A stretch of DNA of 39,234 nucleotides from Bacteroidales bacterium (GTDB taxonomy: Bacteria; Bacteroidota; Bacteroidia; Bacteroidales; GWA2-32-17). Under the pieces are notes generated by a model, which saw only the letters and a program-made list of their open reading frames with translations, was not told the origin of the DNA and searched no databases. The stretch covers positions 1-39,234 of the forward strand of contig JAOADU010000028.1 of NCBI GenBank assembly GCA_026417155.1. Reading direction: 5' to 3'. Each line of letters starts with the position of its first letter. Position 1 is the stretch's first letter. The position numbers and the translations under genes are program-made. This document shows, piece after piece, positions 4,302 through 37,623 of the stretch.

Positions 4302-5653
4302 AGTTTAACTAATTTAAAGCTTTTAATACCAAAAAATGTAAGATAAATATAGCCAATGAATGGAACTATAAACGACCATTGTACATTAAAATTATCGGCA
4401 ATTACACCCATTAGTAAAGGTAGAATAGCACCACCTACAATTGCCATTACCAACAACGATGAGGCCTTGGGAGTATGAATACCTAAATTATGGATAGATA
4501 ATGTAAAAATATTAGACCACATTATTGAATTGAATAAACCCGTAATAATTATACACCAAACAACAACATTGCCCGATAACAATACAACCAAAATTAATAG
4601 CAACATATTAGATAATGAAAAGATAGTTAAAGATATTTGTGGCTTTTTAGCAAAATATAATATACCGGAAGCTATTATTACAATAAATGAATACCAAACG
4701 GCTATATTTAATGAATGAATATATGTTATAAAACCAAACCCGCCAACACATACCAGTAAAGCATAAAATATTTTTTTATAAAAATGTTTATTATCAAGAA
4801 ATATTGCACCTAAAAATCTTCCTAACATCAAACCTGTCCAATAAAGCGATACATACTTACTCGCCATCGCTTCAGTCATATTTCCAATATAAGGTAATTT
4901 TAAAAAGCTAATGAGCATACTGCCAATACTTACCTCGGCACCAACATACATAAAAATAGCAACTATACCCCAAATTAAATGTGGGTATTGATTGATTGTA
5001 AAAACTTGATTATTGCTGGTTTGAGCTTTATATACTGGTAATTTTACAAGAAAAAATAATATCGCTATAAAAAGAAAAACACATGTAAACAATAAATATG
5101 GTGCAATTAGAGCATCTGCAGAATTTTGCTGATGCTTCGAGAAATATGTAAATACCCAATAACCACCCAACAATGGTGCAATTGCAGTACCAAAGCTATT
5201 GAAACCCTGAGCTAAATTTAATCGAGCAGAGGCAGTACGAGCATCACCAATTATAGCAACATAAGGATTGGCAGATATTTGCAATATAGTAAAACCCAGT
5301 CCCAGAATAAATAAACCTAATAGAAACACTCCATAAGAATGTAATATTACTGCTGGGTAAAAAATGCTTGTACCTAAAGCTGAAGTCAATAATCCGCAAA
5401 TTATACCGTACTTATAACCTATCTTGTTTATTGGATCGCCAAAAATATTACTGCTAATATAATAAATCAATGAACCTATAAAATACGAACCAAAAAAAGC
5501 AAACTGAATAACCATTGCCTGAGTATGATTGAGCATAAAAACCGTCTTTAAGTAAGGTATTAAAATATCGTTCATGCATGTTAAAAAACCCCACATAAAA
5601 AATAATAAAACCAAAATAGGGAATACGTATTTTTTTGTTGTTATTTGTTCCAT
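4298..5653 (-). CDS. FucP-family MFS sugar:H+ symporter
   Basis: The protein has about twelve membrane helices and the hallmarks of the FucP/GluP group of the major facilitator superfamily: FFMWGFLTCMNDILIPYLK in helix 1, ISANPYVAIIG in helix 4, and LNLAQGFNSFGTAIAP in helix 5. It probably imports a hexose across the inner membrane. The reading frame is open back to 5854, but the ATG at 5651-5653 gives the normal N-terminus (MEQITTKKYVFPILVLL) and a family-typical 451 residues; the longer form would add 67 residues overlapping the symporter gene. With this start it overlaps the upstream symporter by 13 bp. It lies directly before the ROK kinase, a common pairing for sugar uptake and activation. 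Confidence 0.85.
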   Translation of the reverse strand: MEQITTKKYVFPILVLLFFMWGFLTCMNDILIPYLKTVFMLNHTQAMVIQFAFFGSYFIGSLIYYISSNIFGDPINKIGYKYGIICGLLTSALGTSIFYPAVILHSYGVFLLGLFILGLGFTILQISANPYVAIIGDARTASARLNLAQGFNSFGTAIAPLLGGYWVFTYFSKHQQNSADALIAPYLLFTCVFLFIAILFFLVKLPVYKAQTSNNQVFTINQYPHLIWGIVAIFMYVGAEVSIGSMLISFLKLPYIGNMTEAMASKYVSLYWTGLMLGRFLGAIFLDNKHFYKKIFYALLVCVGGFGFITYIHSLNIAVWYSFIVIIASGILYFAKKPQISLTIFSLSNMLLLILVVLLSGNVVVWCIIITGLFNSIMWSNIFTLSIHNLGIHTPKASSLLVMAIVGGAILPLLMGVIADNFNVQWSFIVPFIGYIYLTFFGIKSFKLVKL

Positions 5654-7413
5654 GAAAGTTTTTTCATTAAATAAATTAATAAAACCAAAAATATGATATC
5701 GGCTATAATGTAAAATGCTGCCCAATAAAACTCTTGAAGTATAATTTTTCCAATAAAAAATAACATAAATAAAACGATCAAACATGATATAAACCACAAC
5801 ATCAATAAATGTGGGATGTTCGATTTTTCTTTCACATTCGTTATTTTTTTCCATCCACGACCTTCGGGTTTTACTTTTTCATAAAATTTCTGCAATGTTT
5901 CTTTATCGGTTGGCTTTGTTAAGAATGTTACTATTATCCAAACGAGAGTTGACCACAATAAAATAATCAATAAAGAATCGGGAAATGTTATCTGATAATT
6001 AATTAATATTGGATAAATTAGAAAAGGAGCTAATAAAGCAGATATTTCACTCCAAGCATTTATACGCCACCAGTACCAACGCAACAACAAGACAGGTCCT
6101 ATGCCAGCACTACACTCTAATATAAACTTCCATGCATCACTAATCCTATTCAACTTAGATGTAAGCAATAAACTAAATATAACTAACATAAAAATTGTGA
6201 TGCGAGATATATTGACATAATATTTTTCAGTTTTTCCTGGTTTTATGTAAGGTTTAAATAAATCGTTAATAATATACGATGTGCCCCACAAGGTTTGACT
6301 TGCAATAGTAGACATGTATGCTGCAAAAAAAGCTGCAACTAGCAAACCAAGCACTCCTGTAGGCATTAAATCTCTAATTACGTACACAAAGCCGTCTCCT
6401 TTTTGATTAGCAGGTAAATCGGGATATAAAACAAGCGAAACTAAAGCAACAATAATCCAAGGCCAGGGTCTTACGGCAAAATGAGCTATTTGAAACCACA
6501 TAGTTGCCCAAACACTGTGTTTTTCGTTTTTTGCCGACATTATTCGTTGGGCAATATAGCCACCTCCACCGGGTTCAGCACCAGGATACCAACTTGCCCA
6601 CCACTGAACACCCAAATAAGTGATAAAAGCCAATAAACTTAAATGCAACACACCTTCATTGCCAATAATTGTTGAATTTTCAATTATTGGAAAAAAACTA
6701 AAAACACTTTCGGGTAATTTCGATTTTATGCCTTCTATGCCCCCTACTACAGGATGCTGTACAGCGATTATCGCTAAAATAATACACCCAACCATTGCCA
6801 CTGTAAATTGTATAGTATCAGTAATAGCAGTTCCCATTAATCCCGAAAGTGTTGAATATAAAGCTATAAATAACATAGCAACTCCAACCCACAACAATTG
6901 AGCCGAAAGCTCAAAACCAAGAAACTTCCATTCCGTATACCCCATAAACGTTAGATTAGGAAAAAGCACCGTCAGAATTTTTACCATCGCTAAATTAACC
7001 CAGGCTATAACAATTGTGTTCATAAAAACACCGATATATATGGCACGAAAACCTCGTAAAAAGTGTGCTGGCTTGCCCGAATATCGCAAAGTAACAAATT
7101 CGCAATCGGTCATAATTCCGGCTCTACGCCACAAACGAGCAAAGAAAAATACTGTAAGCATTCCACCAAGTAGCATATTCCACCACAGCCAATTACCCGC
7201 AATTCCATTCTGAGCCACTAACTCAGTTACTGCTAAAGGAGTATCGGCTGCAAAAGTTGTTGCGACCATGCTTGTTCCTGCAATATACCATGGTAAATTT
7301 TGACCACTTAAAAAAAAGTTCTTGGTATTTACAGCTTTCTTATGAAAATAATAAGCAACTACTATATACAACAAGAAAAATACACTAACTACTAACCAAT
7401 CAACGAAATGCAT
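5641..7413 (-). CDS. Sodium:solute symporter (SSS family)
   Basis: This is an SSS/SLC5-type Na+ symporter of about 590 residues with roughly thirteen membrane helices. Visible signatures are LSGQNLPWYIAGTSMVATTF after helix 1, the helix 5-6 region YSTLSGLMGTAITDTIQF, and GGGGYIAQRIMSAKNEKHS. The C-terminal third carries extra helices and a cytosolic linker (KPTDKETLQKFYEKVKPEG), as in Bacteroidota relatives often found in carbohydrate loci. I start it at the ATG 7411-7413 (MHFVDWLVVSVFFLLYI); an upstream start at 7455 would overlap the EamA gene by 56 bp instead of 14. The substrate is probably a sugar or sialic-acid-like compound; the sequence does not decide it. Confidence 0.85.
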   Translation of the reverse strand: MHFVDWLVVSVFFLLYIVVAYYFHKKAVNTKNFFLSGQNLPWYIAGTSMVATTFAADTPLAVTELVAQNGIAGNWLWWNMLLGGMLTVFFFARLWRRAGIMTDCEFVTLRYSGKPAHFLRGFRAIYIGVFMNTIVIAWVNLAMVKILTVLFPNLTFMGYTEWKFLGFELSAQLLWVGVAMLFIALYSTLSGLMGTAITDTIQFTVAMVGCIILAIIAVQHPVVGGIEGIKSKLPESVFSFFPIIENSTIIGNEGVLHLSLLAFITYLGVQWWASWYPGAEPGGGGYIAQRIMSAKNEKHSVWATMWFQIAHFAVRPWPWIIVALVSLVLYPDLPANQKGDGFVYVIRDLMPTGVLGLLVAAFFAAYMSTIASQTLWGTSYIINDLFKPYIKPGKTEKYYVNISRITIFMLVIFSLLLTSKLNRISDAWKFILECSAGIGPVLLLRWYWWRINAWSEISALLAPFLIYPILINYQITFPDSLLIILLWSTLVWIIVTFLTKPTDKETLQKFYEKVKPEGRGWKKITNVKEKSNIPHLLMLWFISCLIVLFMLFFIGKIILQEFYWAAFYIIADIIFLVLLIYLMKKLSWNK

Positions 7414-12333: not shown

Positions 12334-14073
12334 TTACCTTAATACTTTTCTTACGAATGCTACCGTAAAATATGACATCATAAAAACACCAACAAATCCT
12401 TCTATTGATGACAATATTCGGCTCAAACCCTGTGGAAAAACATCGCCATAACCAATAGTAAAAAACGTTATGGCACTATGATAAAACGATTGAGCAATGA
12501 TAGACATTTTATCGGGATTGCCCACTGAACTCCATGTTTTACCCCAATCGAAAAAATGAAATAATGAAAACAATACACCAAACAAAGCCCATACTACAAC
12601 AATACTTTTGAAAACTCTTAGTGGCGAGGTTGCATACAAACCCATTTTATCGAATACAATTTTTTGGAAATAATACGCAAACCACAAATATATCTGTATG
12701 TACCAAGAACTTTGTTGTATCTTTTGCTTATACAATTTTAATTCTTCTCTTCGGAATGCAACGTATGCCTTATCTTCATCATCGTATTGACCAGTATTAT
12801 TAAAATTGCGTTTCAATAAATTAAATTGCCATGAAAAATGATTTGCATTCTGTTGTGCATTTGATTTAATTTGATTATATACTTGATTCCTGTCCCACGA
12901 GTGAAATAAACTTCCCATTAAGCGACAACCAAATAAATTGATGGCTTTTATTGCAGTAGGATTATCTTCTAACGATAAATCGATTATGTCATGAATAAAA
13001 GCATCGGATAAATTCAACTTTTCGCAATACTGTAATCTTAAGTCGGCATAACTATTGATGCTACATGCTTCAAAAGATAAATCCTTTACACTAGCCTTGT
13101 AAAATGATATTTTCGTATCGAAAAAAGTCGTTTTATCGAAATAAATATCAGTTTGCGTAAATTTTCCTTCATCGAAACTAATTTTTCCCTCCTCGAAACT
13201 AGCACTTTTAATAAGCATTTTGCCCGTTGCTATTTCACTTTCATCGAATAATACATTCGTATTGTGAAAAATTGTTTTGTTAAAATTTATCTTGCTATTA
13301 CCAAATTCGGTTTTGCTAAAATCTAATACTCCTTCACCTATATCGGCACGTTCGAACGAAAGTTGAGTATTTCCAAATATGGCAAATTTGAAATCTTTTA
13401 ACCCTTTGCCAAATACAGCAACTTTAAAATTTATACTCCCATCTCCAAATGAAGCATTAACGAAGCTCACATTTCCATTTCCCCAGTAGCTATTAGAAAA
13501 TAAGATATCGCCATTACCCCAAAAAACATACTGAAAATTTTTACTTCCATCTCCAAAAAATGTATTTTTAAAATCAATTTCTCCCTTAACAAAATTAGCA
13601 TTAAAAAAACTAACATTCCCGCTATAAAAGACAACCGAATTGAAGTTTGCATTGCCTGCTTCGAAAATGCAATTTTCGAACAATACATTTCCACGCAAAA
13701 ACAACGTATTTTGAAAACATACCGGCATGCCACTAAAAATGACATTGCTAAAATTTGTTGCTTTTTGTGCACTAAATATGGCATTTTGGCATGTTAAATT
13801 AAATATTCTTTTTTCTGAATCGTTCCACACAGGTATTTGATTTACATCAAAATTTTCTATAAATACTTCGTTTAAATCTATAGGTTCGTTTGCTATTATT
13901 TGTTTGTAAATTTCTTCGGTTTCAAGATATCCTATTTCTGTATAATAGATTTCGTGCTTCGATTCGTTTAAAAAACTTATACAGGCTGTTTGTTTATAGT
14001 TCTTACCGCTAAACGATTGAAAAGGTTTATCTATAATTCTAATTTTATAATACTTAAATGATGTGGGATACAT
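12334..14073 (-). CDS. Two-TM potassium channel with N-terminal 12-residue-repeat beta-solenoid
   Basis: The 579-residue protein ends in a simple K+ channel pore: a helix near 483-505 (VFKSIVVVWALFGVLFSLF), a pore loop with the selectivity filter TIGYGD at 539-544, and a second helix near 553-576. The N-terminal half has about twenty tandem units of exactly 12 residues (about 92-331; DNA 13081-13800), each with Phe or another hydrophobic at positions 5 and 10 and often Gly at 1 and 11, for example GEIDFKNTFFGD, GNVSFVNASFGD and GVLDFSKTEFGN. This predicts a long right-handed beta-solenoid, related in look to pentapeptide repeats but with a different period. A helical linker with many charged residues (about 400-460) joins it to the pore. 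It is the last gene of the ndk operon, 6 bp after addB. No ligand domain of known type is visible. Confidence 0.85.
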   Translation of the reverse strand: MYPTSFKYYKIRIIDKPFQSFSGKNYKQTACISFLNESKHEIYYTEIGYLETEEIYKQIIANEPIDLNEVFIENFDVNQIPVWNDSEKRIFNLTCQNAIFSAQKATNFSNVIFSGMPVCFQNTLFLRGNVLFENCIFEAGNANFNSVVFYSGNVSFFNANFVKGEIDFKNTFFGDGSKNFQYVFWGNGDILFSNSYWGNGNVSFVNASFGDGSINFKVAVFGKGLKDFKFAIFGNTQLSFERADIGEGVLDFSKTEFGNSKINFNKTIFHNTNVLFDESEIATGKMLIKSASFEEGKISFDEGKFTQTDIYFDKTTFFDTKISFYKASVKDLSFEACSINSYADLRLQYCEKLNLSDAFIHDIIDLSLEDNPTAIKAINLFGCRLMGSLFHSWDRNQVYNQIKSNAQQNANHFSWQFNLLKRNFNNTGQYDDEDKAYVAFRREELKLYKQKIQQSSWYIQIYLWFAYYFQKIVFDKMGLYATSPLRVFKSIVVVWALFGVLFSLFHFFDWGKTWSSVGNPDKMSIIAQSFYHSAITFFTIGYGDVFPQGLSRILSSIEGFVGVFMMSYFTVAFVRKVLR

Positions 14074-14079
14074 AAAATA

Positions 14080-16824
14080 TTAAATTTTCTTGCAAATTAT
14101 ATTAAATTTGCAATTCTTACAATTTTTTTTATCTTCTGTTTGTGTAAAAATCAACTCCTCATTTAACATTTCTCTTAATTTCGATTGAATTGCTGTTTCT
14201 ACATCAGCAATATGTTCGGTTAAATTAAATTCTTTATTAGCGACTTTTATTATACCCTCTTCGTCGGCTTTATTTAAAAAGATATTTTCTAAATATATGT
14301 GCTGATAGTTCTTATTATTAGCATAAAAAATATAACTGTAATATAAAAGTTGCAACGGATAAATATATTTTTTCATACCTGAAAAAAAATCATCAACCGA
14401 TGATAAATTCAGATTAGTATCGCTTTTTGACAACTTTAAATCAATAATGTAAATATAGTTATTGCTATTTTTTACAATTAAATCGGGGATACCTGTTAAC
14501 TTTATCTTTTGTTCATCAATTTGTATTGTGCTTTCTATATTTTGTCCATTGTTTAAAATTTCTAATGGATATGACCTATATTCTTTTTCATTTTCCGAAT
14601 TAAAAAATTTCTTTAACAGGTTTAAAACTTGTACTTTCTGTATGCTTGTGTATAACACATTGGGTTTTGCTTGAAAAAATTTATTGATTTCGGGTTCTAT
14701 ATTATTTAAGTAATTTTGTAAATCATTTATCGTAACATTTTTATTGTTTAATAAATTCTTAATTATATTATCTAAAGCATTACCTAATTCAATTTGCTCC
14801 TGAGGTTCTATAAAAATATCATCCATTTCCAATTTTAATATACATCGAAGAGCAAATCGAAGTTTGCAGGTTACAAATTCGCTAAACTCATGACGCGACA
14901 ACCCCTTTTTCAATAAGTTCTGATAAAATTCATTCCATTGCTGGTAAATTTGCCTTTTCTCTATCTGTATGTTTTTCAGAGGAGTGTCGAACACAAAAGG
15001 AATGGAAGCTTTATGAGAGTCTTTTATTTTATCGAAAAAATCTAACTGACGTATGTACGGGCTCTTATCTACTGGCTTATTGTTGGTAAAATTTGCATAA
15101 CATAGATAAACCTCCTGACTTCGTTGAAGTAAGCGATAAAAATGATATGCATCAACCACCTCACGTCGAGCATTTGTTGTTAAATTGTAATAAACCCGAA
15201 ATGAATGAAGAATAAAAGTTGCTGGAATGTGTTTTCGTGGTAGATTTTCTTCTGATAATGATAGCACCAATACGCGTTTAAAATCGAGCAAACGTGTTTC
15301 CATTAATCCCATAATTTGCAACCCTTCTATTGGCTCACCGATTAAATCAACTTTCAGCCCTGATAATATTTGCAACAAAACTTTTATTCCTGTTTGCAAT
15401 TTTTCGAAGTTTATTAGAGATTTTGAGCAACTTAATTTGAAAAAATGAATAGTTTCAATTATTTTGTTTATAGCCTGTTTTTCTATCTCGTTATGAATGT
15501 TTTTTTCTTTTTCTATGTTTTCAAGAGTGATAGAATAAAATTCTTTTATTCTATCTAAAAAAGTAAAAATATCCTGATTCTTATCGAATAATAAAGGGAA
15601 TATTTTTTCGGGTATTTTATTTTTAGCTGATGGGTTTAGTATTAACGATACTTTATTGTTTTCTATCCATTCTTTTGCCCAACTTTCGTTAAAAATATAT
15701 GGATGATAAAAAATGTTTAATAAATAATTAGTAAGAATGTTGTCGTTCCCTTTTGAAATCCAATCGTATATTAATCGAATAAACGAAAAAGCATGGGTAT
15801 GTTTTATAGAAAAACCCATAGTTACATTCACTTTTTCAATTTTTTCGGGCAAAGTATGCAATACTAAAGGCAACAACGACTCGTCGGTTAATACAAGAGC
15901 AGTTTGTTCGTATTGTTCTTCGGAATTTTTTACTAGTAAATTTAAAGCATATTTAACCTGCATTGATTCATTATCAAATTCAAAAGCTTGTATTATGGTA
16001 TTATTAAAATTATTGACACTAATGTTAAAATCGGAAGGATTGGGATGTTTTTTTATTTGTTCGCGTAAAACCTTTCCTGCAGGAATCAATTCGTTTTGTA
16101 TATAAAATTCATCATAATCCCACAAATAAGTAAGCTTTTTCCGATTGGCAAGATATTGTAAAATTTCTTGTTCGCTTTTTGTTAATACATTAAAGCCAAC
16201 TGCATATACATTATCTTCTATAGTTATTGAATCTATTTCTTTTTCTAAAAAATATCGCCATAATAATCCGTCGTATGCTAAGTTTTTTGATATAAGGGTT
16301 TTTGTAAAATTGCTATATATTTCGAATAAATTTTTTCGAATAAGATGGTGCTTATCCAATAATGATTTGTTAATTATTATTTGTTTGTATATTTCTAAAA
16401 TATTTTTTATTTCATCTTCAATCGAAAACAACTCCTGTATTTGTTCCAAATCGGCAATATTTTTAAAAAACTTTTCAACATCAACCAATTCTGCATCAAT
16501 TTCATTGAAATCGTTAAGTAATATTTTGCCAATTTGAATAAATTCATCAAACGATTTAACCAGTTCTTTTACTGAAAATGATTGGTATAATTCAAAAAGC
16601 AATACTATTTCATCGGCTAAAGTTAATGCAGAGTGCTTGCAAACCCAATCTTTAAAAGAAACTATTTCGGGAAGCCACGAAACGTTTTTATCAATTAGCT
16701 TTATGAAATGTTCTTGTAGATAAAGACACGAACGACGATTAGGCATCAAGATTAATACTTCATTTAGATTGTTTGTATGCTTTAAATAAATGCCTTTTGC
16801 AACTTCTTGTAAAAAAGTATTCAT
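14080..16824 (-). CDS. AddB-like PD-(D/E)XK nuclease/helicase-fold subunit
   Basis: The 914-residue protein fits the Bacteroidota AddB-like family, partner of AddA in double-strand break processing. The N-terminal part is a degenerate helicase fold (EVLILMPNRRSCLYLQEHF at 22-40). The C-terminal nuclease shows GIPDLIV (Asp781) and YIYIIDLKLSK (Asp795, Lys797). Cys653 (in FVTCKLRF) together with Cys902, Cys905 and Cys911 (CKNCKFNIICKK) match the four-cysteine iron-sulfur staple around AddB nuclease domains. It starts 3 bp after the cstA-like gene and 1.4 kb after addA, in one operon. The family is divergent; function rests on these motifs and on the addA neighbour. Confidence 0.82.
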   Translation of the reverse strand: MNTFLQEVAKGIYLKHTNNLNEVLILMPNRRSCLYLQEHFIKLIDKNVSWLPEIVSFKDWVCKHSALTLADEIVLLFELYQSFSVKELVKSFDEFIQIGKILLNDFNEIDAELVDVEKFFKNIADLEQIQELFSIEDEIKNILEIYKQIIINKSLLDKHHLIRKNLFEIYSNFTKTLISKNLAYDGLLWRYFLEKEIDSITIEDNVYAVGFNVLTKSEQEILQYLANRKKLTYLWDYDEFYIQNELIPAGKVLREQIKKHPNPSDFNISVNNFNNTIIQAFEFDNESMQVKYALNLLVKNSEEQYEQTALVLTDESLLPLVLHTLPEKIEKVNVTMGFSIKHTHAFSFIRLIYDWISKGNDNILTNYLLNIFYHPYIFNESWAKEWIENNKVSLILNPSAKNKIPEKIFPLLFDKNQDIFTFLDRIKEFYSITLENIEKEKNIHNEIEKQAINKIIETIHFFKLSCSKSLINFEKLQTGIKVLLQILSGLKVDLIGEPIEGLQIMGLMETRLLDFKRVLVLSLSEENLPRKHIPATFILHSFRVYYNLTTNARREVVDAYHFYRLLQRSQEVYLCYANFTNNKPVDKSPYIRQLDFFDKIKDSHKASIPFVFDTPLKNIQIEKRQIYQQWNEFYQNLLKKGLSRHEFSEFVTCKLRFALRCILKLEMDDIFIEPQEQIELGNALDNIIKNLLNNKNVTINDLQNYLNNIEPEINKFFQAKPNVLYTSIQKVQVLNLLKKFFNSENEKEYRSYPLEILNNGQNIESTIQIDEQKIKLTGIPDLIVKNSNNYIYIIDLKLSKSDTNLNLSSVDDFFSGMKKYIYPLQLLYYSYIFYANNKNYQHIYLENIFLNKADEEGIIKVANKEFNLTEHIADVETAIQSKLREMLNEELIFTQTEDKKNCKNCKFNIICKKI

Positions 16825-16827
16825 TCG

Positions 16828-18240
16828 TTATTTTCTTATTAAATGTTTAAAGATAAACCAAATGCAAAGAATAGCAGTAATAATCATGCCAAATGTATAA
16901 GAAGTTGTTTTATTCAGTGAAAAACCTTCGGGTGCTATTAATAGATATGTTGTAACAACTGCCGTCATAAATACAGCTGGAATTAGAGTAATGAAAAAAA
17001 ACTTTTTTTGTCTTACAAGAAATATCGTAATTGTCCACAAAACAATTGTTGCCAATGTTTGATTTGCCCAGGCCATATAACGCCAAATGATATCGAAATT
17101 TATTTGTGTTAATAAGAACCCACCTAAAAAGAGAAAAAAAGATATTATCAATCGGTTTTTTATAGATTTCTGCGGTATTTTGATTACATCGGCAACAATA
17201 AGTCGTGCACTCCTAAAGGCAGTATCACCACTGGTAATGGGTGCTGCCACAACCCCCAATAAAGCTAAGACGCTACCTACCGTTCCTAATAATTGCACCG
17301 TAATCTCATTAACTGCCCATGCTGCATTTCCATTATGGGCAGCCATAATAGCGTTGAGCTGAGAAACCCCGCCCCAAAAACTCATACCTACTGCAGCCCA
17401 TATCAAAGCTACCAAGCCCTCGACCACCATTGCCCCGTAAAACACTCGACGCCCATACTTTTCATTACTGATACACCTTGCCATCATCGGAGACTGAGTA
17501 GCATGAAAACCCGAAATTGCCCCACAAGCTATGGTAATGAACATTAAAGGAAAAATAGGAAATTTTTCAGCATTTTCGTGCATATTAGTCAACGTCAATT
17601 CTGGAATAGGAAGACCATTCCATATCATTGCTCCCAAAACCGACACTGCCATAAATATTAAAGCAAAACCAAAAATAGGATAAAAGCGTCCAATAATTTT
17701 ATCTATTGGCAATAATGTTGCAGCTATGTAATATATGAATATTAGGGTAGCCCAAAAAGAAATTCCCAATTGTCCTGACGATATACCATCTAATATTTTT
17801 GCTGGTCCTGTTACAAAAACTGCACCCACCATTATCATCATTATTACGACAAAAACACGCATAATTTGTTTCATCGCTTTACCCATATAAGTGCCAACAA
17901 TTTCGGTTATTGATGCTCCCTGATGCCTTAATGATATCATTCCGGAAAAATAATCATGAACAGCACCAGCCAATATGTTTCCAAATACAATCCATAAAAA
18001 AGCTACGGGTCCCCACATAGCTCCGGCAATTGCTCCAAAAATAGGTCCCAAGCCGGCTATATTCAAAAATTGAATTAAAAATATCTTAGTCCATGGTAAT
18101 GCTACATAGTCAACTCCATCGCTTTGACTTATGGCTGGAGTAACATTCTGGCTGTTGCTACCAAAAATTTTATCTACTAAGCGAGAATAAAACCAATAAC
18201 CACCAAATAATAATAAAATTGAAACAATAAAAGTTATCAT
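16828..18240 (-). CDS. CstA-type carbon starvation/peptide transporter
   Basis: The 470-residue inner-membrane protein matches the short Bacteroidota form of CstA (the E. coli protein is about 700 residues). It has about thirteen helices and the conserved stretches FLNIAGLGPIFGAIAGAMWGP, GAVHDYFSGMISLRHQG, and ISGFHATQSPMMARCISNE. CstA proteins import pyruvate or peptides under carbon limitation. Its ATG overlaps the addA stop by 4 bp (ATGA) and addB follows 3 bp later, so it lies between the two subunits of a DNA-repair nuclease, an unexpected place. The transporter call is firm; its substrate and any link to repair are unknown. Confidence 0.88.
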   Translation of the reverse strand: MITFIVSILLLFGGYWFYSRLVDKIFGSNSQNVTPAISQSDGVDYVALPWTKIFLIQFLNIAGLGPIFGAIAGAMWGPVAFLWIVFGNILAGAVHDYFSGMISLRHQGASITEIVGTYMGKAMKQIMRVFVVIMMIMVGAVFVTGPAKILDGISSGQLGISFWATLIFIYYIAATLLPIDKIIGRFYPIFGFALIFMAVSVLGAMIWNGLPIPELTLTNMHENAEKFPIFPLMFITIACGAISGFHATQSPMMARCISNEKYGRRVFYGAMVVEGLVALIWAAVGMSFWGGVSQLNAIMAAHNGNAAWAVNEITVQLLGTVGSVLALLGVVAAPITSGDTAFRSARLIVADVIKIPQKSIKNRLIISFFLFLGGFLLTQINFDIIWRYMAWANQTLATIVLWTITIFLVRQKKFFFITLIPAVFMTAVVTTYLLIAPEGFSLNKTTSYTFGMIITAILCIWFIFKHLIRK

Positions 18241-21200
18241 ACGCTAACTTCTTTATATTCATTGGTCTCTACGTAAATTAAATATGCTTTTACATTTTTA
18301 TAATTTAACTGTTTTAGTAACTGGCAATATTCCGATATTTGTTTATAGCTTGCTTCAACTTCAATTGTACTTGCTTTAAAATCGACAACAATTACAGATT
18401 CGTCGAATATAAATATTTTATCGGGTCTCCTAATCTCATTTATATTGTATATATTGCGTTCGCTGTATATTTTTTTTGCTGTTTTTAACCATCTTATTAT
18501 TAAACTTTCGGGCGAAAACAGTTTGTTAAGTTTTTCCATTATATTATTATGCAAATCATCTGAAACTTGATATTCATTTAAAACCTTTTTTGCAACATTT
18601 TGCCATTGCGTTGATTGAACTTGTTCCAATATAGCATGAATAATTTCACCATATATTTGTTGATCACTTTTCTGAAAATTTTCGCTTTGCTTTACTATAA
18701 GGTTTCTATTTTCATTAAAGTAAAGAACATCTTTTGTATTAAATGAAAAATCTTTTATTATATCTAAAGAAAACGAATCACGATTTGATAAACTACCTAA
18801 CTCAAATGTATTTTGATTTTTGTAAAAATCATCTATTTTACAATTAATACCATTGACATTAATTTCTGCATTTTTAAAATCATTATTATCAAAAATCTCT
18901 TTTACTTTTTTTCCAATACCTTTATTATAAACTTTAGCAATCATAGCATATTTAGCTCGTGTAAATGCCACATACAAAAGATTAGTATCGTCAATTTCTT
19001 TCTTTTCTTGCTCTTTACAATAACAATCTTTGAAAATAGTATGCTCAAGATCTTTTTTCATGGTAAGAAAAAGTATAGGCAATTCATTCTTAATTGTGGA
19101 ACATGCGTTTTCTACCCATAAGTAATCAGGATTTAGGTTGTTTGCTTTAGAATCCCAGCTAATTGAAGGTATTATCACGGCATCGAATTGCAATCCTTTC
19201 GAGCTATGAATGGTTTCAATAAATATGCCTTTTTCCTTTCCTGTTAGCTGTATAGTGTTATTACGACCCTCGTCGAAATACCATGCAATAAAAGCTAAGT
19301 CGCTGCCAAAAAATTGCAATGTCGAGTCGGCTAACATCGAAATAAAATGGTTGTAAAATATTAATTCTCCAACAGGGAAATTAACATGTTTTGATAATTG
19401 CGAATACATTAATTCTACTTTTGTAAGCAACGAGCTATATTTATGTTCTTCAAGTTTTTTAACAATGGTATCAACTATGTCCGAATTATTAGGTTTAATA
19501 AGTTCGGATGCTGCATAAAAACTAAGAGATGACGATGTATAAAAATAATGTAAAATGTGCATGATGCTTTCAACAACAATTGAATTTTTTAATGTTATAC
19601 TCTCTTTAGAAATAATGGGCACTTGGTTAGTTATATTCTTTTCTTGAGTTAATAACTGAAATACTTCCTGAGCCTCTATATTTTTACGAACTAATATACC
19701 TATTTGCTGATAATTTTTGTTGATTAGTTCCTGCACTTCATTAATCAACCATCTATATCTACCATTTTTCTCCTCATCATCCAAAGATTCTTGACTAATC
19801 GAATCGGCTTTTTCTTCAAAGAGTATTTTTACATACCCATCGTTGCTTTCACTTTTATTTGGATATAGCTGTTTTACATCACTGAAATTATTTTTCAATG
19901 ACTCGTTATTGGCAAAATACTGAAAAAAGATGTTATTAAATTCGATAATGTTTTTACACGAACGCCAATTTTTATCGAGTTTTTTAGATATTAATTGTGG
20001 ATAGTCTTTTTTTAATTGGGAATTCATAAGCTCCCATTCGCCATTACGCCATCGGTATATAGCCTGTTTAATATCGCCTACCATAATTGCTTTTATTCCC
20101 GATGCATTATTCGAAAGACTTTCATCTATCAGTGGTTTAATCACATTATATTGCAGTGTTGAAGTATCTTGAAATTCGTCTATTAAAAAATATTCGTATT
20201 TTATTCCAAGTTTTTCGTAAATAAAAAGATAATTTTCTTTAATGAAATCAATTATTATTTTTGCAATATCCGATAATAACAATTGCGAATTGTTTTTTTT
20301 ATATTCGTCTAATACCTGTACTACTTTATGAATAAGCCCTATGTTGAAAATATTCTCTTTAATTATTCTGTAAGTTTCATATTTTATAGCATTGTCGTTT
20401 AAATATGTACTAATTTCATGGCTTAATTTTTCAAATTCTTCTTCATACTGTTTAAAGTTACCAACATTTTTTTTATCTTTAGCAAACCATTCTTTCTGAT
20501 TGAAAAAATTTTCAAGCGAATTAGTTTTAATATCCGTTATTTTATCTCCTTTTTCGAATTTTGAAAACTTATTTTCAAAAACATTTGCAAATCCTCTATT
20601 CCCATTTTTAAAGTTTTCAATATTCAGATTGGCTTTATTTCGCAGATCTTTAAATTTTTGTGAAAAGTTATTAATTTGCTGTACAAATTCGTCCATAAAC
20701 TCATCAAGAGTATTCTTAATATATTCATAATCAAAAATTTTTTTTTCTTTGAAAATATCCTGATGAAAATAAAAGAATTCTTTATTAATTTCTTTTGCTA
20801 GTTGAATGATTTCGTTTTTTATTTGTACATTTTTATCTACCGAACTTCTATAAGCAATAAATTCACTAATCCATTCTAATATTGTATTTTCAGTATTTTC
20901 GTTTAATAGAAATTCTTCGACTGCTTTTTCAATAAGGGGGTCTATTTCAATGATAAGATCATAATTGGCATTGAATCCTATTTCGAATAACGATGATGCT
21001 AAAATTTTTTGCAGAAAGCTATCAATAGTCAAAACCGAAAAATTGTAATAATGAAATAATATATGTTGAAAAACCTTTTGAGATGTTAATTTTAGTTCAT
21101 TTACGTCGTTTATTTTTTCATTAAATTCCTGTTCAACAAAATTTGTATATTCACGAATGGTTTCTTCGTTTCCTTTGGCTAATTTATGTAATTTTTCTAA

Positions 21201-21359
21201 AATACGATTTTTCTTTTCATTGACTGCCGCATTTGTAAACGTAAGTGCCAGTATTTTTTCATAATTTTTTTCATCTTGTAGAGCTATGTAAATATAAAAC
21301 ATAGTAATATAAAAAGTCTTGCCGCTACCTGCTGAAGATGAAACAACTTGCAATGACAT
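18237..21359 (-). CDS. AddA-like UvrD-family helicase/nuclease
   Basis: The 1040-residue protein is a superfamily 1A helicase with a C-terminal RecB-type nuclease, the AddA side of an AddAB complex that resects double-strand ends for RecA loading. Helicase motifs appear in order: SSSAGSGKT (7-15, Walker A), LALTFTNAAVNEKKNRI (Ia), FLIDEFQDTS (Walker B), GDIKQAIYRWR (III), a conserved arginine in KKLDKNWRSCKN (IV), ETIHSSKGLQFDAVIIP (V) and LLYVAFTRAKYAM (VI). The nuclease end has RRPDKIFIF (Asp980) and VIVVDFKAS (Asp993, Lys995). It starts 1 bp after gmk and overlaps cstA by 4 bp. Confidence 0.9.
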   Translation of the reverse strand: MSLQVVSSSAGSGKTFYITMFYIYIALQDEKNYEKILALTFTNAAVNEKKNRILEKLHKLAKGNEETIREYTNFVEQEFNEKINDVNELKLTSQKVFQHILFHYYNFSVLTIDSFLQKILASSLFEIGFNANYDLIIEIDPLIEKAVEEFLLNENTENTILEWISEFIAYRSSVDKNVQIKNEIIQLAKEINKEFFYFHQDIFKEKKIFDYEYIKNTLDEFMDEFVQQINNFSQKFKDLRNKANLNIENFKNGNRGFANVFENKFSKFEKGDKITDIKTNSLENFFNQKEWFAKDKKNVGNFKQYEEEFEKLSHEISTYLNDNAIKYETYRIIKENIFNIGLIHKVVQVLDEYKKNNSQLLLSDIAKIIIDFIKENYLFIYEKLGIKYEYFLIDEFQDTSTLQYNVIKPLIDESLSNNASGIKAIMVGDIKQAIYRWRNGEWELMNSQLKKDYPQLISKKLDKNWRSCKNIIEFNNIFFQYFANNESLKNNFSDVKQLYPNKSESNDGYVKILFEEKADSISQESLDDEEKNGRYRWLINEVQELINKNYQQIGILVRKNIEAQEVFQLLTQEKNITNQVPIISKESITLKNSIVVESIMHILHYFYTSSSLSFYAASELIKPNNSDIVDTIVKKLEEHKYSSLLTKVELMYSQLSKHVNFPVGELIFYNHFISMLADSTLQFFGSDLAFIAWYFDEGRNNTIQLTGKEKGIFIETIHSSKGLQFDAVIIPSISWDSKANNLNPDYLWVENACSTIKNELPILFLTMKKDLEHTIFKDCYCKEQEKKEIDDTNLLYVAFTRAKYAMIAKVYNKGIGKKVKEIFDNNDFKNAEINVNGINCKIDDFYKNQNTFELGSLSNRDSFSLDIIKDFSFNTKDVLYFNENRNLIVKQSENFQKSDQQIYGEIIHAILEQVQSTQWQNVAKKVLNEYQVSDDLHNNIMEKLNKLFSPESLIIRWLKTAKKIYSERNIYNINEIRRPDKIFIFDESVIVVDFKASTIEVEASYKQISEYCQLLKQLNYKNVKAYLIYVETNEYKEVSV

Positions 21360-30630: not shown

Positions 30631-33600
30631 ATGAAAAAGTTTGTTTTCATATTTCTGTTGTTAGTACAATCCAATATTCAAGCACAAGATTGTAACATAA
30701 CATCGAAAGCAAACGACATGCTACCTAACAAACTTTGTGCACCGGTTACGGTTACTTGGGAAGTAACTTACAGAGGAGTAAATAACGCCGGTACACCCGT
30801 CGAAATTGTTTTCAATTGGGACGACGGCAATCCTGTTCAAGTTGTTGCTGCTACAAACACAAATCCCGTGCTTAAAGAATGGAAAGCCACAGTAGTACAT
30901 GTTTATCCACAAGGAGGTCCAAGATGCAATTACCGTCCCGAAGCTACATTAAGAGTAAACGGAGTATTATGTACAAGTAGCGTACAACAACAAAACGTTA
31001 CCGTCTGGGATACAGACAATTATAATGGTGGACAACTACGAATTAACCCTGTCGTATTTCCAATTTGTGTTGGCAATAGTGGAACCGTAACATTCCAGGA
31101 TGTTAGCTTATGGAATTGTGTGCCACCTGTCGAAAATGATAATCCTAACAATCCTACCCGTTGGACACAATGGGTTTATGGAACGAGCTATACTATCAAT
31201 GGTGTTTTAGTTGGCGGAACTCCACATACATATCCTTATTATGGACCTGTTGTACCTGCTCCCGGACCTGTATACGGACCTCAACCACCGAACAATGTTA
31301 GCCTTCCTGTCTATGCTCCTAATACAGCACTAGTAGGACAATTTTTTGAAGTAACATTGCGAAATTGGAATGTATGCAATCCTTACGACGATCCCAATAT
31401 TCCTGGACCACCTGCCGATCCTATCAACGGAGATTATCCTCCTATTACAACAACAGCTATTATTCTTATTGTACCATACCCTAACGCTACTATTCAACCA
31501 GCAGGACCTTTCTGCTCCAACGCATCTCCAGTTAATCTGCAGGCAGCAACACCCGGAGGAACATGGTCGGGACCTGGTATTACTAATAGTACAACTGGCA
31601 CTTTTAATCCTTCCGTAGCAGGTCCAGGTACACATACTATTACTTATAATGTAACAAATAATTATGGTTGTACTGGAATAGGAACAACCCAAATAACAGT
31701 ATATGCACGACCAAATATCAACATGCAACCAGGAACCAACTTAACTATATGTCCTGGCGATACTTTGTATCTCAATGCTAATCCTACACCAGGTACACCA
31801 AACGGAGGCGCCATTGCTACACATCTATGGACGGGTGCAACTACTTATTTGAATGCTACTAACATTCCTAATCCGTTTTTCGTATGCAATACACCTGGAA
31901 CATATAATCTCACATATCGAGTAACTGATGTCAATGGATGTTGGCGACAACAAAATGTTACTATTCGTGTTACTTCAGTATCTGCTAATATTTTACCCGA
32001 TCCTGCCCAGGCTTGTGTAGGCATTCCATTTCAACTAAATGGAAATCCATCGGGGGGCACAGGTAATTATATCATTCATTTATGGACAGGAGCCGACAGC
32101 TTATTATCTTCAACTACTATACGAAATCCATATTTTTTAGCTACAGCACCTGGTACATATACATTGCAATACTTCGTACAAGACAATTTAGGCTGTAACG
32201 CAACAGACAATATTGTTATACAGGTATCAGCTACACCTTTAGCTAATGCCGGTCCTGATGATACTATATGTGGTAAAAATTATACTTTAAGTGCTATTCC
32301 CAGCATTGGAACTGGAACATGGTCATTAATTAGTGGTCCTGGTACAGCAAGTTTTCAACAAACTAACAACCCTAACACAAATGTTACTGTATCACAATTT
32401 GGTACTTATTATTTTCGCTGGCAAGAGACATTTGGATTTGGATGTACCTCGCGCGACACTGTAAGAATTACATTTATACAAACACCCAATGCTAATGCAG
32501 GACAAGATAAAAGCCTTTGTGGATTACAGACAAATTTAAATGCTGTTCCAAGTATTGGTACAGGAACTTGGACAATTTTATCGGGTCCGGGAAATTGTAC
32601 TATACATAATCCTAATCATCCAAATACGTCAGTTCAAGCAGATACCTACGGAAGTTATCAATTTATTTGGACAGAAGATAACACTTCGGGTTGTTCCGAT
32701 TCGGATACAGTAACAGTTAATTTCGATGTTGTACCTATTGCTTCATTTATTCCAACAAATCCTAATGGATGCAGTCCGTTTACAATTCAATTTCAAAATA
32801 CTAGTCAATATGGACATTCTTATGTATGGAAATTTTCCGACAATACGCAAAGTTCTGATGTTAATCCTATACATACTTTTACAAACCAAACAAACCAGAA
32901 TGTTCAATATACCGTTATGCTTATTGCTACTTCACAATTTGGTTGTAAAGATAGTGTTCAACATTCGTTAATTGTACATCCTTTACCAAAGTCGCAATTT
33001 ACACATAACGCACAACCTGCATGTAGTCCTATTACAGTTAGTTTTACAAATCAATCTATTGATGCAGTTCAATACTTATGGGATTTTGGCGATGGATATA
33101 CTTCACAACAATCAAATCCTACACATACTTTTGTAAATAACACAACATTAATACAATACTACACCGTTAAGCTTATTGCTACAAACATTTACGGATGTAA
33201 CGACACAAGTTTGCAATACATTACTGTTTTTCCAGATCCAGACTATACCATTACTGCTACCCCTCAAGAAGGTTGTTCTCCTGCTCAAATTTTGTTTCAA
33301 ACACAACCAGGCGCTTCACAATATATATGGAATTTTGGCAATGGAGTTATTCAACAAGGTAGCAATATTATTCAATATTCTTATGTAAATAATACTGCGA
33401 ATCAACAAACTTTTAATGTAGAACTCATTGCCACTAATTTCTTTGGATGTAAGGATACTTCTACAATTATTGTTACGATAAATCCAAAGCCCATAGCAAA
33501 TTTTGCAATTCAAGCTATTGAAACATGCAGTCCTGCAGTCTATAATTTTACTAATCAATCGCAAAATGCTAGCCAAACACGATGGTATTGGGGTGACGGG

Positions 33601-36051
33601 ACCTTCGAAGATAACACTAATAACACCATTCAACACTCTTACATCAACAATTCAGCATCGCCAATAAATTTGACTGTTTCATTGGTGGCTATAAACACTT
33701 TTGGATGTCGTGATAGCGTATCTTTGCCTATAACAGTCTATCCCCATATCGAAGCTAATTTTACTTCCAATCAGATAGGTTGTTCTCCATTAACCGTAAA
33801 CTTTCAAAATCAATCAACTGCAAATGCTACCTACGAATGGAACTTTGGCAACGGACAAACATCACAGCAGCAAAATCCCTCACAAACATACATAAATACC
33901 ATCAATTCGCCCCAACAATTTCAAGTAATGCTAATTGCCACTTCGCCATATGGTTGTAAAGATACTGCAACAACATTAATTACTGTTTATCCCAAACCAA
34001 CTGCACAACTTCAAATACAAAATCCTAACAGTTGTGCTCCAGTTAACATATCGTTTCAAAATCTTTCTTCAGGTGCTACAAGTTACTTATATAATTTTGG
34101 CGATCAAAGTACTTCTACCAGTTCAAACCCTATCGTAACACATACTTACAATAATACTACTCCTAACCCAATAAATTATACTTGCTGGTTAGTTGTTCAA
34201 AACAACTTTGGATGTAAAGATAGTGTTTCGCAAAATATTACTATATTCCCCCAAATACAAGCAAGTTTTATATCAGATACTATTGGTTGTTCTCCACTGT
34301 ACGTTGCGTTTAACAACACTTCTACACAAGCAAACACATACTATTGGGATTTTGGCAATGGACAAACTTCTCAACAACAAAATCCATCACAAACTTTTAC
34401 AAATACAACCAATGCTCCCCAGCAATATCAAGTGATGCTTATCGCTACTTCGCAATTTGGCTGTAAAGATACTGCTTTTTCAACCATTAAAGTTTTACCA
34501 AAGCCTACTGCACAATTACAAGCACAAAATCCTGCAGGATGTGCACCTGCGAGTATTTTATTTCAAAATAATTCGTCGGGAGCTACAAGCTTTTTTTATA
34601 ACTTTGGCGATCAAAGTACATCTACAAACCCCAATAGCATAGTATCTCATACATACGAAAACATTACTCCCAATCCTATTAACTATACCTGTTGGTTAAT
34701 TGTACAAAACAATTTTGGATGTAAAGATAGCATTTCGCAAATCATCACAGTTTATCCACGTGTTTTAGCAAACTTTACTTCCGACACAGCAGGATGCTCT
34801 CCCCTTACAATTGTTTTCAACAACTATTCTATGTATGCCAATTCGTATTTATGGAATTTCGGCGATGGAAACACATCTAATTTATTTCAACCAGCACACA
34901 CTTATGTAAATAACACTACAGGAACGTTAATATATCCTGTAGTTCTAACTGCAACATCGGTTTATGGTTGTACAGCAACTTATCAAAAAAATATTTATGT
35001 ATATGCCGTTCCTAATGCAAGTTTTACGCTCGATTCGTTAGTTTTGCATTATCCAAATACAACTGTTATTATAGACAACACTACTCCGGGTACTTGGCAA
35101 TATTTATGGAATTTTGGTGACGGAACCTCATCAAACTTAATTGAACCCATTTCGCATACGTTTTCAACTTACGGAAATTACACCATAAAACTTATAGCTT
35201 ATTCTGCTTTTTGTAGCGACACTGCTATTCAAAATGTGCAAATAATACCACCGGTTCCTGTAGCATTTTATTTGCCTTCGTATGCCAATGGATGTGCTCC
35301 ATTAACAGTGAGTTTTACAAATCAAAGTCAGTATGCTACAAGTTATTTATGGTATTTTGGTGATGGTAGTAGTTCAACAGAGACCAATCCAACATATATA
35401 TATTCTACACCGGGTAGTTACGATGTAAGTTTAACTGCTATAGGACCAGGGGGTCAAAGCTCATACAGTGCTGGCAAAGTTGATGTTTATCCTAAAGCAA
35501 CTGCTTATTTTACAGTTTCGCCGAGTGTAGTATTTATTCCTTCACAACCTATTCAATGTTTTAATCTATCTCAACATGCTTCAACATTCTTATGGAATTT
35601 TGGCGATGGCTGCACTTCTACCGAAACAAACCCCAAACACTATTATACACACGAAGGCGAATACCATATACAGCTTATTGCAAATAACGAATACCAATGC
35701 CCCGATACATTCACTATTTATCGTGCCGTAGTAGCAAAATCTGAAGGAAAGATAGAATTTCCCAGTGCATTTACTCCTAATCCTAATGGACCTAATGGAG
35801 GCTACTACAATCCCAACGATTACAACAACGATGTTTTTCATCCAGTTTTTGTTGGCGTCGAAAAATACAAATTAAGCATTTTTAATCGCTGGGGCGAACT
35901 TATTTTTGAGAGCGAAGATCCTAATATAGGCTGGGATGGATATTATCGCGGAGAATTATGCAAACAAGATGTTTATGTTTGGAAAGTAAGTGGTAAATTT
36001 GTAAACGGAGAAAACTTTTTTAAAGCAGGTGATGTAACATTATTACGATAA
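30631..36051 (+). CDS. Giant PKD-repeat protein with type IX (type B) sorting domain
   Basis: This 1806-residue secreted protein has a signal peptide (MKKFVFIFLLLVQSNIQA), an N-terminal region of beta-rich domains (about 20-690; one pair of related units starts ANAGPDDTICGKN and ANAGQDKSLCGLQ), then about twelve PKD domains (about 698-1700) with the core W-x-F-G-D/N-G. The C-terminal domain (about 1708-1806) has FPSAFTPNPNGPNGG, KYKLSIFNRWGELIFES, GWDGYYRG and QDVYVWKV, the gliding-motility-associated type B signal read by the type IX secretion system. Nine of the PKD units have a matched cysteine pair (CSP or CAP, and GCKD or GCxD/A), likely a disulfide in each. PKD units 5-6 and 7-8 are near copies. 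It is probably a surface adhesin or structural protein, secreted with help from the PorP/SprF gene downstream. Confidence 0.9.
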   Translation: MKKFVFIFLLLVQSNIQAQDCNITSKANDMLPNKLCAPVTVTWEVTYRGVNNAGTPVEIVFNWDDGNPVQVVAATNTNPVLKEWKATVVHVYPQGGPRCNYRPEATLRVNGVLCTSSVQQQNVTVWDTDNYNGGQLRINPVVFPICVGNSGTVTFQDVSLWNCVPPVENDNPNNPTRWTQWVYGTSYTINGVLVGGTPHTYPYYGPVVPAPGPVYGPQPPNNVSLPVYAPNTALVGQFFEVTLRNWNVCNPYDDPNIPGPPADPINGDYPPITTTAIILIVPYPNATIQPAGPFCSNASPVNLQAATPGGTWSGPGITNSTTGTFNPSVAGPGTHTITYNVTNNYGCTGIGTTQITVYARPNINMQPGTNLTICPGDTLYLNANPTPGTPNGGAIATHLWTGATTYLNATNIPNPFFVCNTPGTYNLTYRVTDVNGCWRQQNVTIRVTSVSANILPDPAQACVGIPFQLNGNPSGGTGNYIIHLWTGADSLLSSTTIRNPYFLATAPGTYTLQYFVQDNLGCNATDNIVIQVSATPLANAGPDDTICGKNYTLSAIPSIGTGTWSLISGPGTASFQQTNNPNTNVTVSQFGTYYFRWQETFGFGCTSRDTVRITFIQTPNANAGQDKSLCGLQTNLNAVPSIGTGTWTILSGPGNCTIHNPNHPNTSVQADTYGSYQFIWTEDNTSGCSDSDTVTVNFDVVPIASFIPTNPNGCSPFTIQFQNTSQYGHSYVWKFSDNTQSSDVNPIHTFTNQTNQNVQYTVMLIATSQFGCKDSVQHSLIVHPLPKSQFTHNAQPACSPITVSFTNQSIDAVQYLWDFGDGYTSQQSNPTHTFVNNTTLIQYYTVKLIATNIYGCNDTSLQYITVFPDPDYTITATPQEGCSPAQILFQTQPGASQYIWNFGNGVIQQGSNIIQYSYVNNTANQQTFNVELIATNFFGCKDTSTIIVTINPKPIANFAIQAIETCSPAVYNFTNQSQNASQTRWYWGDGTFEDNTNNTIQHSYINNSASPINLTVSLVAINTFGCRDSVSLPITVYPHIEANFTSNQIGCSPLTVNFQNQSTANATYEWNFGNGQTSQQQNPSQTYINTINSPQQFQVMLIATSPYGCKDTATTLITVYPKPTAQLQIQNPNSCAPVNISFQNLSSGATSYLYNFGDQSTSTSSNPIVTHTYNNTTPNPINYTCWLVVQNNFGCKDSVSQNITIFPQIQASFISDTIGCSPLYVAFNNTSTQANTYYWDFGNGQTSQQQNPSQTFTNTTNAPQQYQVMLIATSQFGCKDTAFSTIKVLPKPTAQLQAQNPAGCAPASILFQNNSSGATSFFYNFGDQSTSTNPNSIVSHTYENITPNPINYTCWLIVQNNFGCKDSISQIITVYPRVLANFTSDTAGCSPLTIVFNNYSMYANSYLWNFGDGNTSNLFQPAHTYVNNTTGTLIYPVVLTATSVYGCTATYQKNIYVYAVPNASFTLDSLVLHYPNTTVIIDNTTPGTWQYLWNFGDGTSSNLIEPISHTFSTYGNYTIKLIAYSAFCSDTAIQNVQIIPPVPVAFYLPSYANGCAPLTVSFTNQSQYATSYLWYFGDGSSSTETNPTYIYSTPGSYDVSLTAIGPGGQSSYSAGKVDVYPKATAYFTVSPSVVFIPSQPIQCFNLSQHASTFLWNFGDGCTSTETNPKHYYTHEGEYHIQLIANNEYQCPDTFTIYRAVVAKSEGKIEFPSAFTPNPNGPNGGYYNPNDYNNDVFHPVFVGVEKYKLSIFNRWGELIFESEDPNIGWDGYYRGELCKQDVYVWKVSGKFVNGENFFKAGDVTLLR
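33740..34760 (+). repeat. Duplicated pair of PKD domains (period 507 bp)
   Basis: Two consecutive PKD pairs match: NFGNGQTSQQQNPSQT occurs near 33842 and again near 34350, and YNFGDQSTST follows in each. The offset between equivalent bases (GGACAAAC at 33853 and 34360) is 507 bp, or 169 residues. The similarity is higher than between other units, so this looks like a recent in-frame tandem duplication. Confidence 0.75.
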
Positions 36052-36054
36052 TAC

Positions 36055-37623
36055 ATGAAAATAATAATAACGATAGTAAGTCTTTTATTGATTGTCAATT
36101 ATAATTATTGCCAAAAAAAGCATTCAAAACTATATTATACAAAACTTGACAAAGCAAACAGAGAATATTTTCTTGAAAATTATCATATCGCTCTTCCGTT
36201 ATTTAGCGAACTTTATGCAATGGATACAACCAACCTCGATGTGGCGTATAAACTTGGAAAATGTATTTTTTCTGTAAGAAGAGAATCGCAAGAATCGTTT
36301 TACTATTTCCAAAAAGCCAAAGTGCAATATCCATGTGCAAATTTTTATTTAGGCCGCTTATATCATGCTCAACAAATGTTCGATAAAGCTTTAGAAGCAT
36401 TTTTAGAATGCAAAAATGCAGGCGAAAACAGAGATGTTAGTATTGACGATATTGATTACTATATGCAAAAATCGCAAAATGCAAAAGAAATGATGCTCAT
36501 TCGTTCCAATGCAATCATTAGTAATATGAACAATGGTATCAACACTCCATTCCCCGAATATTGCCCATTATTAAGTCCCGACGAAAATACCATTTATTTT
36601 ACAAGCCGACGAAAAGGATCTACAGGCAATAAACTTGATGTTAACTACGAATATTTCGAAGATATTTATTACGCTCAACGAAACAATGGGACATGGTCTG
36701 AGGTTAAGAATATAGGTCCACCCATCAATACCGAACTTCACGATGCAACAGTAGCAATTTCAAAAGACGGACAACAAATGTATATTTTTCGAACAGCTCC
36801 CAATTTAATACAGGGAACAATTTTAGTATCAACACTCAATGATGGAAAATGGACTGAACCTAAAGCTATTGATTTTCCTATATTTAATGAAACAGGAACT
36901 GTTACATCATTAACTATTTCGCAAGATATGAATACTATATATTTTGCTGCCAACTTTGAAGGTGGGTATGGTGGAAAAGATCTATACCGTATTACTCGCA
37001 TGCCCGATAGCTCATGGAGCAAGCCTATGAATTTAGGACCTACTATTAATACACCGTATGATGAAGAATCGCCATACATACATCCCGATGGTATTACTTT
37101 ATACTTTTCGTCAAAAGGACATAAAAACATGGGGGGCTACGATGTATTTCGTTCAGTTAAAAATGAAGACGGACAATGGTCGGCACCAGAAAATTTAGGC
37201 TACCCTATTAATAGCGTTATGGACGATTTATATTTTATAGCTACTTTCGACGGGAAAACTTTTTATCTTTCATCCAATCGTGATGACGGCAATGGTTCGA
37301 TGGATATTTATAAAGGTGAAATAATTGATCCACAACTCAATAGAATGATTTTACGAGGAACTATCATGACTAACGAACCCGAAGTTTCGCCCGTAAAAGC
37401 TACTATTACGATCATTGATTATGATACAAAGGAACTTCAAGGAATATATAGAACTACAAAAAACGGTAAATACATCTTAGTACTCCTACCCCGAAAAAAA
37501 TACAAAATGATTGTTGAAGCAGAAAATTACTACCCTTTTTCAACAGAAATAGATTTGAAAGAAAGAATACAATTTGAAGATCTTTTTAAAACAATAATTT
37601 TAAAGCCAGTACAACAAGAATGA
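36055..37623 (+). CDS. TPR/PD40 protein, PorE-like without OmpA domain
   Basis: The 522-residue exported protein (signal peptide MKIIITIVSLLLIVNYNYC) has tetratricopeptide-like helices (about 30-135), a WD40-like PD40 beta-propeller (about 165-425; LSPDENTIYFTSRRKGSTG, ISQDMNTIYFAANFEGGYG, DGITLYFSSKGHKNMGGYD), and a carboxypeptidase-regulatory-like domain (about 430-515; TIIDYDTKELQGIYRT). PorE of type IX secretion has these parts plus a C-terminal OmpA peptidoglycan-binding domain, which is missing here; the protein ends at LKPVQQE. It starts 3 bp after the PKD gene and overlaps the PorP gene by 4 bp, so the three form one unit. Confidence 0.82.
   Translation: MKIIITIVSLLLIVNYNYCQKKHSKLYYTKLDKANREYFLENYHIALPLFSELYAMDTTNLDVAYKLGKCIFSVRRESQESFYYFQKAKVQYPCANFYLGRLYHAQQMFDKALEAFLECKNAGENRDVSIDDIDYYMQKSQNAKEMMLIRSNAIISNMNNGINTPFPEYCPLLSPDENTIYFTSRRKGSTGNKLDVNYEYFEDIYYAQRNNGTWSEVKNIGPPINTELHDATVAISKDGQQMYIFRTAPNLIQGTILVSTLNDGKWTEPKAIDFPIFNETGTVTSLTISQDMNTIYFAANFEGGYGGKDLYRITRMPDSSWSKPMNLGPTINTPYDEESPYIHPDGITLYFSSKGHKNMGGYDVFRSVKNEDGQWSAPENLGYPINSVMDDLYFIATFDGKTFYLSSNRDDGNGSMDIYKGEIIDPQLNRMILRGTIMTNEPEVSPVKATITIIDYDTKELQGIYRTTKNGKYILVLLPRKKYKMIVEAENYYPFSTEIDLKERIQFEDLFKTIILKPVQQE

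Follow-up and report, generated by a model that had tools for sequence, protein, structure and literature searches.

The window, the whole 39,234-nucleotide stretch of DNA that was analyzed, carries on its minus strand a gene for a 579-residue protein in which a repetitive soluble half is followed by an ion channel pore. According to the list of open reading frames and the translation, the frame has boundaries of exactly 12334–14073. The parts of this gene, and the gene next to it, are given below.

12334–14073, minus strand: whole channel gene, 579 aa, ATG start (open reading frame list and translation)
13810–14073, minus strand: N-terminal domain, residues 1–88, presumed cytosolic (AlphaFold2 model, block pLDDT 69–95)
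13081–13800, minus strand: β-solenoid, residues 92–331, twenty 12-residue units in ten predicted 24-residue turns (periodicity, model, and Streptomyces pentapeptide-repeat matches)
12898–13080, minus strand: solenoid end and cap, residues 332–392 (conservation)
12664–12897, minus strand: linker, residues 393–470, presumed helical (conservation; the helix comes from a low-confidence model region only)
12544–12663, minus strand: slide-helix motif DKMGLYATSPxRV and TM1, residues 471–510 (conservation and hydropathy)
12433–12495, minus strand: pore helix and selectivity filter TIGYGD, filter residues 539–544 (Ion_trans_2)
12337–12432, minus strand: TM2, ending FTVAFVRKVLR and then stop, without a C-terminal domain (chain end after the filter across 51 members)
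14080–16824, minus strand: AddB-like PD-(D/E)XK nuclease gene, upstream, 6 bp from the channel gene (Pfam PDDEXK_1)

The region 14080–21359 encodes the AddB-like nuclease, a CstA carbon starvation protein, and a UvrD/AddA-like helicase in one minus-strand run that ends in the channel, with the CstA gene lying between the addA- and addB-like genes. An AddB-like gene is found just upstream of the channel, on the same strand, in about 14 of 51 loci. Because the other loci have unrelated neighbors, this linkage is read as inherited gene order; no neighboring gene is constant across the loci of the channel family. In one relative (L012), the genes after the channel are, in order, one for a methyl-accepting-like membrane protein and a TrkH-like K+ uptake gene (assigned by eye), an arrangement in which a link to K+ physiology is possible.

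The pore is identified in Pfam as Ion_trans_2 (E 3.7e-10), scoring 40 bits where the cut-off is 22.5, and the same model was matched in all 19 family members searched. Only two strongly hydrophobic segments are evident from hydropathy, at about residues 484–507 and 557–577, and they flank a re-entrant loop; an N-terminal hydrophobic or signal peptide-like segment was not found by hydropathy in the 579-residue channel. Indeed, the minimal two-helix K+ pore with an intact TIGYGD filter that the first-pass annotation had described is borne out by these results. The filter, T[IV]G[YF]G[DE], is present in all 51 members examined. Upon comparison of the family profile with solved structures, Kir7.1 was the best match (E 7e-7), and the pores of other K+ channels were matched as well. 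The channel is presumably tetrameric and K+ selective, with the solenoid half placed in the cytosol.

Control via a voltage sensor or a C-terminal domain is common among the best-studied K+ channels of bacteria. In the 579-residue channel, no RCK, cyclic nucleotide-binding, or bactofilin domain was found in Pfam at E values up to 10, in agreement with the earlier remark that neither a nucleotide-binding nor an RCK domain was visible. Of the 51 members, 48 terminate 35 residues past the filter and the other 3 terminate 36 residues past it, in every case with RK[IV]LR. A two-TM pore with a slide helix is also the arrangement in KirBac and Kir channels, but Kir channels have a C-terminal cytosolic domain, whereas the chain of the solenoid channel stops at TM2. 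Similarly, RCK and cyclic nucleotide-gated channels carry a C-terminal RCK domain or CNBD, and the solenoid channel has neither.

Residues 92–331 can be set out in a 12-residue register. Phenylalanine occupies position 5 in 18 of the 20 units, and position 10 is aromatic or aliphatic in 19. Glycine is found at position 1 in 12 units and at position 11 in 8, and the first unit (residues 92–103) fits the repeat poorly. The consensus unit of the family is G-D-V-S-F-K-N-A-E-F-G-N. The autocorrelation of hydrophobic residues was 0.49, 0.43, and 0.50 at lags of 12, 24, and 36, respectively; among 2000 shuffles, the maximum over lags 1–40 averaged 0.13 and was at its highest 0.30. Comparison of the repeat region with itself gave 30% residue identity at lag 12. 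The 12-residue period is genuine, and the first reading of about twenty such repeats, with hydrophobic residues at positions 5 and 10 and glycine often at 1 and 11, stands.

The fold was predicted with AlphaFold2 from alignments of two and three sequences, which were enough for the soluble half and not for the pore. The soluble half (residues 1–395) attained a pLDDT of 87.8 and a pTM of 0.86, and in the full-length job the linker and pore were mostly below 50. The solenoid that had been expected is present in the model of the soluble part, as a right-handed β-helix. The strand pattern of residues 92–331 has an autocorrelation of 0.79 at lag 24 versus 0.39 at lag 12, which indicates two 12-residue units per turn and ten turns. 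Residues 1–88 form three strands (8–14, 28–36, and 41–49) and a helix (52–60) in the model and are the soluble part with the lowest conservation among 44 non-redundant relatives. Structural alignment returned right-handed β-helices (Z ∼23, rmsd 3.7, 324 residues), high Z-scores that indicate the general β-helix class only. Foldseek matched the pentapeptide protein EfsQnr (probability 0.97, E 0.015), with AlbG also among the matches, and gave no low-E match in the PDB, the best E being 0.003. AlphaFold2 is biased toward confident β-solenoids for perfect repeats, which it over-predicts (PMC11795689). Since the present repeats are imperfect (30%), hydrophobic or small residues occupy the inward positions, and independent Pfam evidence agrees, the solenoid is accepted as the predicted fold of residues 92–331, and its fine detail is not.

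The strict period of 12 had been taken to point to a solenoid geometry different from that of pentapeptide repeats. Against Pfam, the window protein itself has no pentapeptide match, Pentapeptide_3 included, at E values up to 10. Three channel relatives score above the Pentapeptide_3 cut-off of 27 bits (L020 with 58.9, L018 with 42.6, and L016 with 40.7). In tblastn searches, residues ∼92–340 matched Streptomyces pentapeptide repeat-containing proteins at E values down to 8e-25, with 28%–31% identity over ∼240 residues of the solenoid, and the same Streptomyces proteins score PF13576 Pentapeptide_3 at E 1e-29 to 1e-45. Simple-repeat convergence may explain the BLAST score; the repeat type is the same regardless. 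Like the window solenoid, the Streptomyces proteins WP_135567495.1, WP_329583145.1, and WP_328741277.1 have a strict 5+7=12 repeat, and F-F spacings of 5, 7, 12, and 24 occur in both; they differ in having no K+ pore and appear to carry hydrophobic segments of their own near the N terminus. Read from the sequence, the inward pairs (positions 3/5 and 8/10) fit the pentapeptide i−2/i pattern, with two additional residues in every second loop. The shared spacing, the similarity to the Streptomyces proteins, and the relatives above the cut-off together point to the strict 12-residue period being that of a known, Pentapeptide_3-like pentapeptide subtype.

The classical pentapeptide coil consists of four pentapeptides, and the classical Rfr definition asks for a minimum of eight pentapeptides in a row, with four making up each coil (PMC8145042). 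Classical Rfr proteins (MfpA, Qnr, and EfsQnr) form a right-handed β-helix with stacked inward i−2/i pairs, as is predicted here, but their coil has 20 residues, whereas the window solenoid has a period of 12 and 24 residues per predicted turn. The solenoid thus falls outside the classical Rfr definition with its 20-residue coils, and the predicted 24-residue coil would differ from the classical coil of four pentapeptides. The claim of a different geometry holds for the predicted turn and fails for the repeat type, which is that of Pentapeptide_3 proteins. The match to an ordinary period-5 pentapeptide family that would have spoken against the claim was found in part, through the relatives; the window protein has no such match and its period is 12. 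That the repeat forms a solenoid class of its own, without relation to pentapeptide repeats, might be argued from that missing Pfam match at E values up to 10 and from a predicted turn of 24 rather than 20 residues, but the 5+7 spacing and significant similarity shared with annotated Pentapeptide_3 proteins, the channel relatives above the cut-off, and the i−2/i pattern of the inward pairs make it very unlikely, and the Pentapeptide_3 similarity largely refutes it.

Another protein of the same order (L109) also has an N-terminal pentapeptide-type domain followed by a two-TM C-terminal pore and ends soon after TM2. It is above the Pfam cut-offs of both Pentapeptide_4 and Ion_trans_2, and a pentapeptide-type domain joined to a two-TM pore is therefore not new as a general kind. 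L109 differs from the window channel in having no 12-residue period, a shorter and more irregular solenoid, and a different linker. A literature search, mostly without subscription journals, yielded nothing on K+ channels with pentapeptide repeats. The family of the window channel is distinct, with a locked length, and consists of a minimal K+ pore fused to a rod of 12-residue repeats in ten predicted turns; what defines it as a variant is this repeat together with the fixed length and the conservation of the linker. The 12-residue Pentapeptide_3 repeat of the Streptomyces proteins is thus also coupled to an ion channel.

Of 393 genomes sampled from the order, 71 held relatives (E below 1e-30), and 31 of 99 nearby genomes matched, mostly with full channels and some with the pore only. 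A query with the solenoid only added another 14 genomes from other parts of the class, all with the full channel including the pore: in this class, the solenoid module goes with the pore. In a sample of the phylum searched with a profile of the whole protein, a full-length match was obtained only in the window's own genome, and the others covered the pore or little more; this sample missed relatives, as the 14 channel genomes found with the solenoid-only query indicate. Viral contigs gave 273 pattern matches and no relatives of the channel. The one close relative recovered by a scan of genome contigs comes from an uncultured Bacteroidales MAG, where its gene is split by a frameshift. In the closest relative (L002 and L021, 73% identity), a frameshift splits the channel gene near residue 135, which may reflect an assembly error or decay.

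The length of the rod varies in steps. The span from F100 to F324 is exactly 224 in 15 of 19 aligned members, lies close to 224 in whatever else belongs to the main class, and is ∼308 in three of the 19. Across 51 members, the solenoid falls into the main class, a class shorter by ∼24 residues, and a class longer by ∼84, with a scatter of a few residues in some. The steps of −24 and +84 are multiples of 12, and the shorter class is without one predicted turn. In 22 order-level genomes, the open frame has 623–701 residues.

Conservation was computed over the 44 non-redundant relatives. In the solenoid end and cap, D344, R346, L355, D362, D365, G382, and G387 are conserved. The linker is near-invariant at W393, Q416, LK420–421, G428, ED433–434, Y437, R442, and E444, as is the end of TM2 (RKxLR), and the slide helix is invariant at D475, G478, T482, R486, and V487. 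The central solenoid units carry conserved charged residues at outward positions (K217, D227, E241, R242, D251, E256, R266, E277, and K285); the letters are the family consensus at window numbering, and at some of these positions the window protein itself has another residue, e.g., K266 and D277. These outward charges could form a binding face or a subunit contact.

The protein would be a two-TM K+ channel that assembles as a tetramer, its N-terminal half lying in the cytosol as a Pentapeptide_3-like right-handed β-helix of ten 24-residue turns. The usual gating route via a C-terminal domain is absent, the chain stopping at the inner end of TM2, and because nothing follows TM2, control by the soluble module would have to pass through the linker and slide helix, on the N-terminal side. 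Of the roles considered for the solenoid, the most likely is that of a regulatory or docking rod, with a cytosolic partner or ligand binding its conserved charged surface. Binding would be passed via the linker (W393–E444) to the slide helix and TM1 (D475–V487), which would lie beside the TM2 end with its invariant RKxLR, and would thereby shift the pore between closed and open. The strong conservation of the linker and slide helix, the conserved outward charges, the locked solenoid length, and the lack of a C-terminal domain favor such a rod; that no ligand or partner was found for the solenoid and that no neighboring gene is constant count against it, and the rod, though conserved, could have a purely structural anchoring role. 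Taken as a whole, the explanation of the solenoid as a cytosolic regulatory or docking rod acting on the slide helix is evenly poised between right and wrong. With a large, length-locked N-terminal β-rod and nothing past TM2, the family would isolate N-terminal control of a minimal pore.

Lengths locked into classes are also what a spacer would need, and the absence of a ligand domain and of a constant gene partner is likewise consistent with a passive solenoid, a tether or spacer that anchors the channel to some cytosolic structure or sets its assembly, with gating residing in the filter or absent as in a leak channel. Nevertheless, the near-invariant linker and slide helix suggest a coupling to the pore beyond mere holding, and we regard the passive role as possible but somewhat doubtful. 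In a stronger form of regulation, the solenoid would itself be both sensor and gate lever, the charged rod binding a cytosolic ligand or protein and opening the pore from the N-terminal, TM1 side. This appears unlikely; if true, it would represent K+ channel gating without a C-terminal domain, a voltage sensor, or a known ligand domain. The channel might also be an effector that depolarizes the cell when the solenoid senses a signal of stress or phage. One of 19 relatives weakly matched the anti-phage HalA model (E 3e-4, the member and region not being traced), but PADLOC matched none of the 19 members and the neighboring genes are housekeeping or variable, which leaves an effector role highly improbable.

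A second Bacteroidota family (L097, L098, L100, L101, L102, and L103) was considered as a relative and rejected, its pore end being similar but its soluble part different. In its proteins, of ∼570–630 aa, the N-terminal region holds a hydrophobic segment, the soluble part is irregular, and the filter reads TLG[YF]GE; they end just past TM2 and have marginal or absent Pfam pore scores. Two other proteins (L023 and L026) have two-TM pores that end at TM2, preceded by other N-terminal soluble domains, one of them TPR-like by look; control from the N-terminal side alone may be a recurring feature of the phylum.

Elsewhere in the window, the region 30631–38624 encodes an 1806-aa protein that combines at least 10 PKD domains with a CHU_C type IX secretion signal; the genes for a PD40 protein and PorP/SprF come next. 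At 5641–5854, the open reading frame of an MFS transporter overlaps that of a sodium-solute symporter by ∼214 bp in a different frame, and the MFS start probably lies further downstream than the longest frame suggests.
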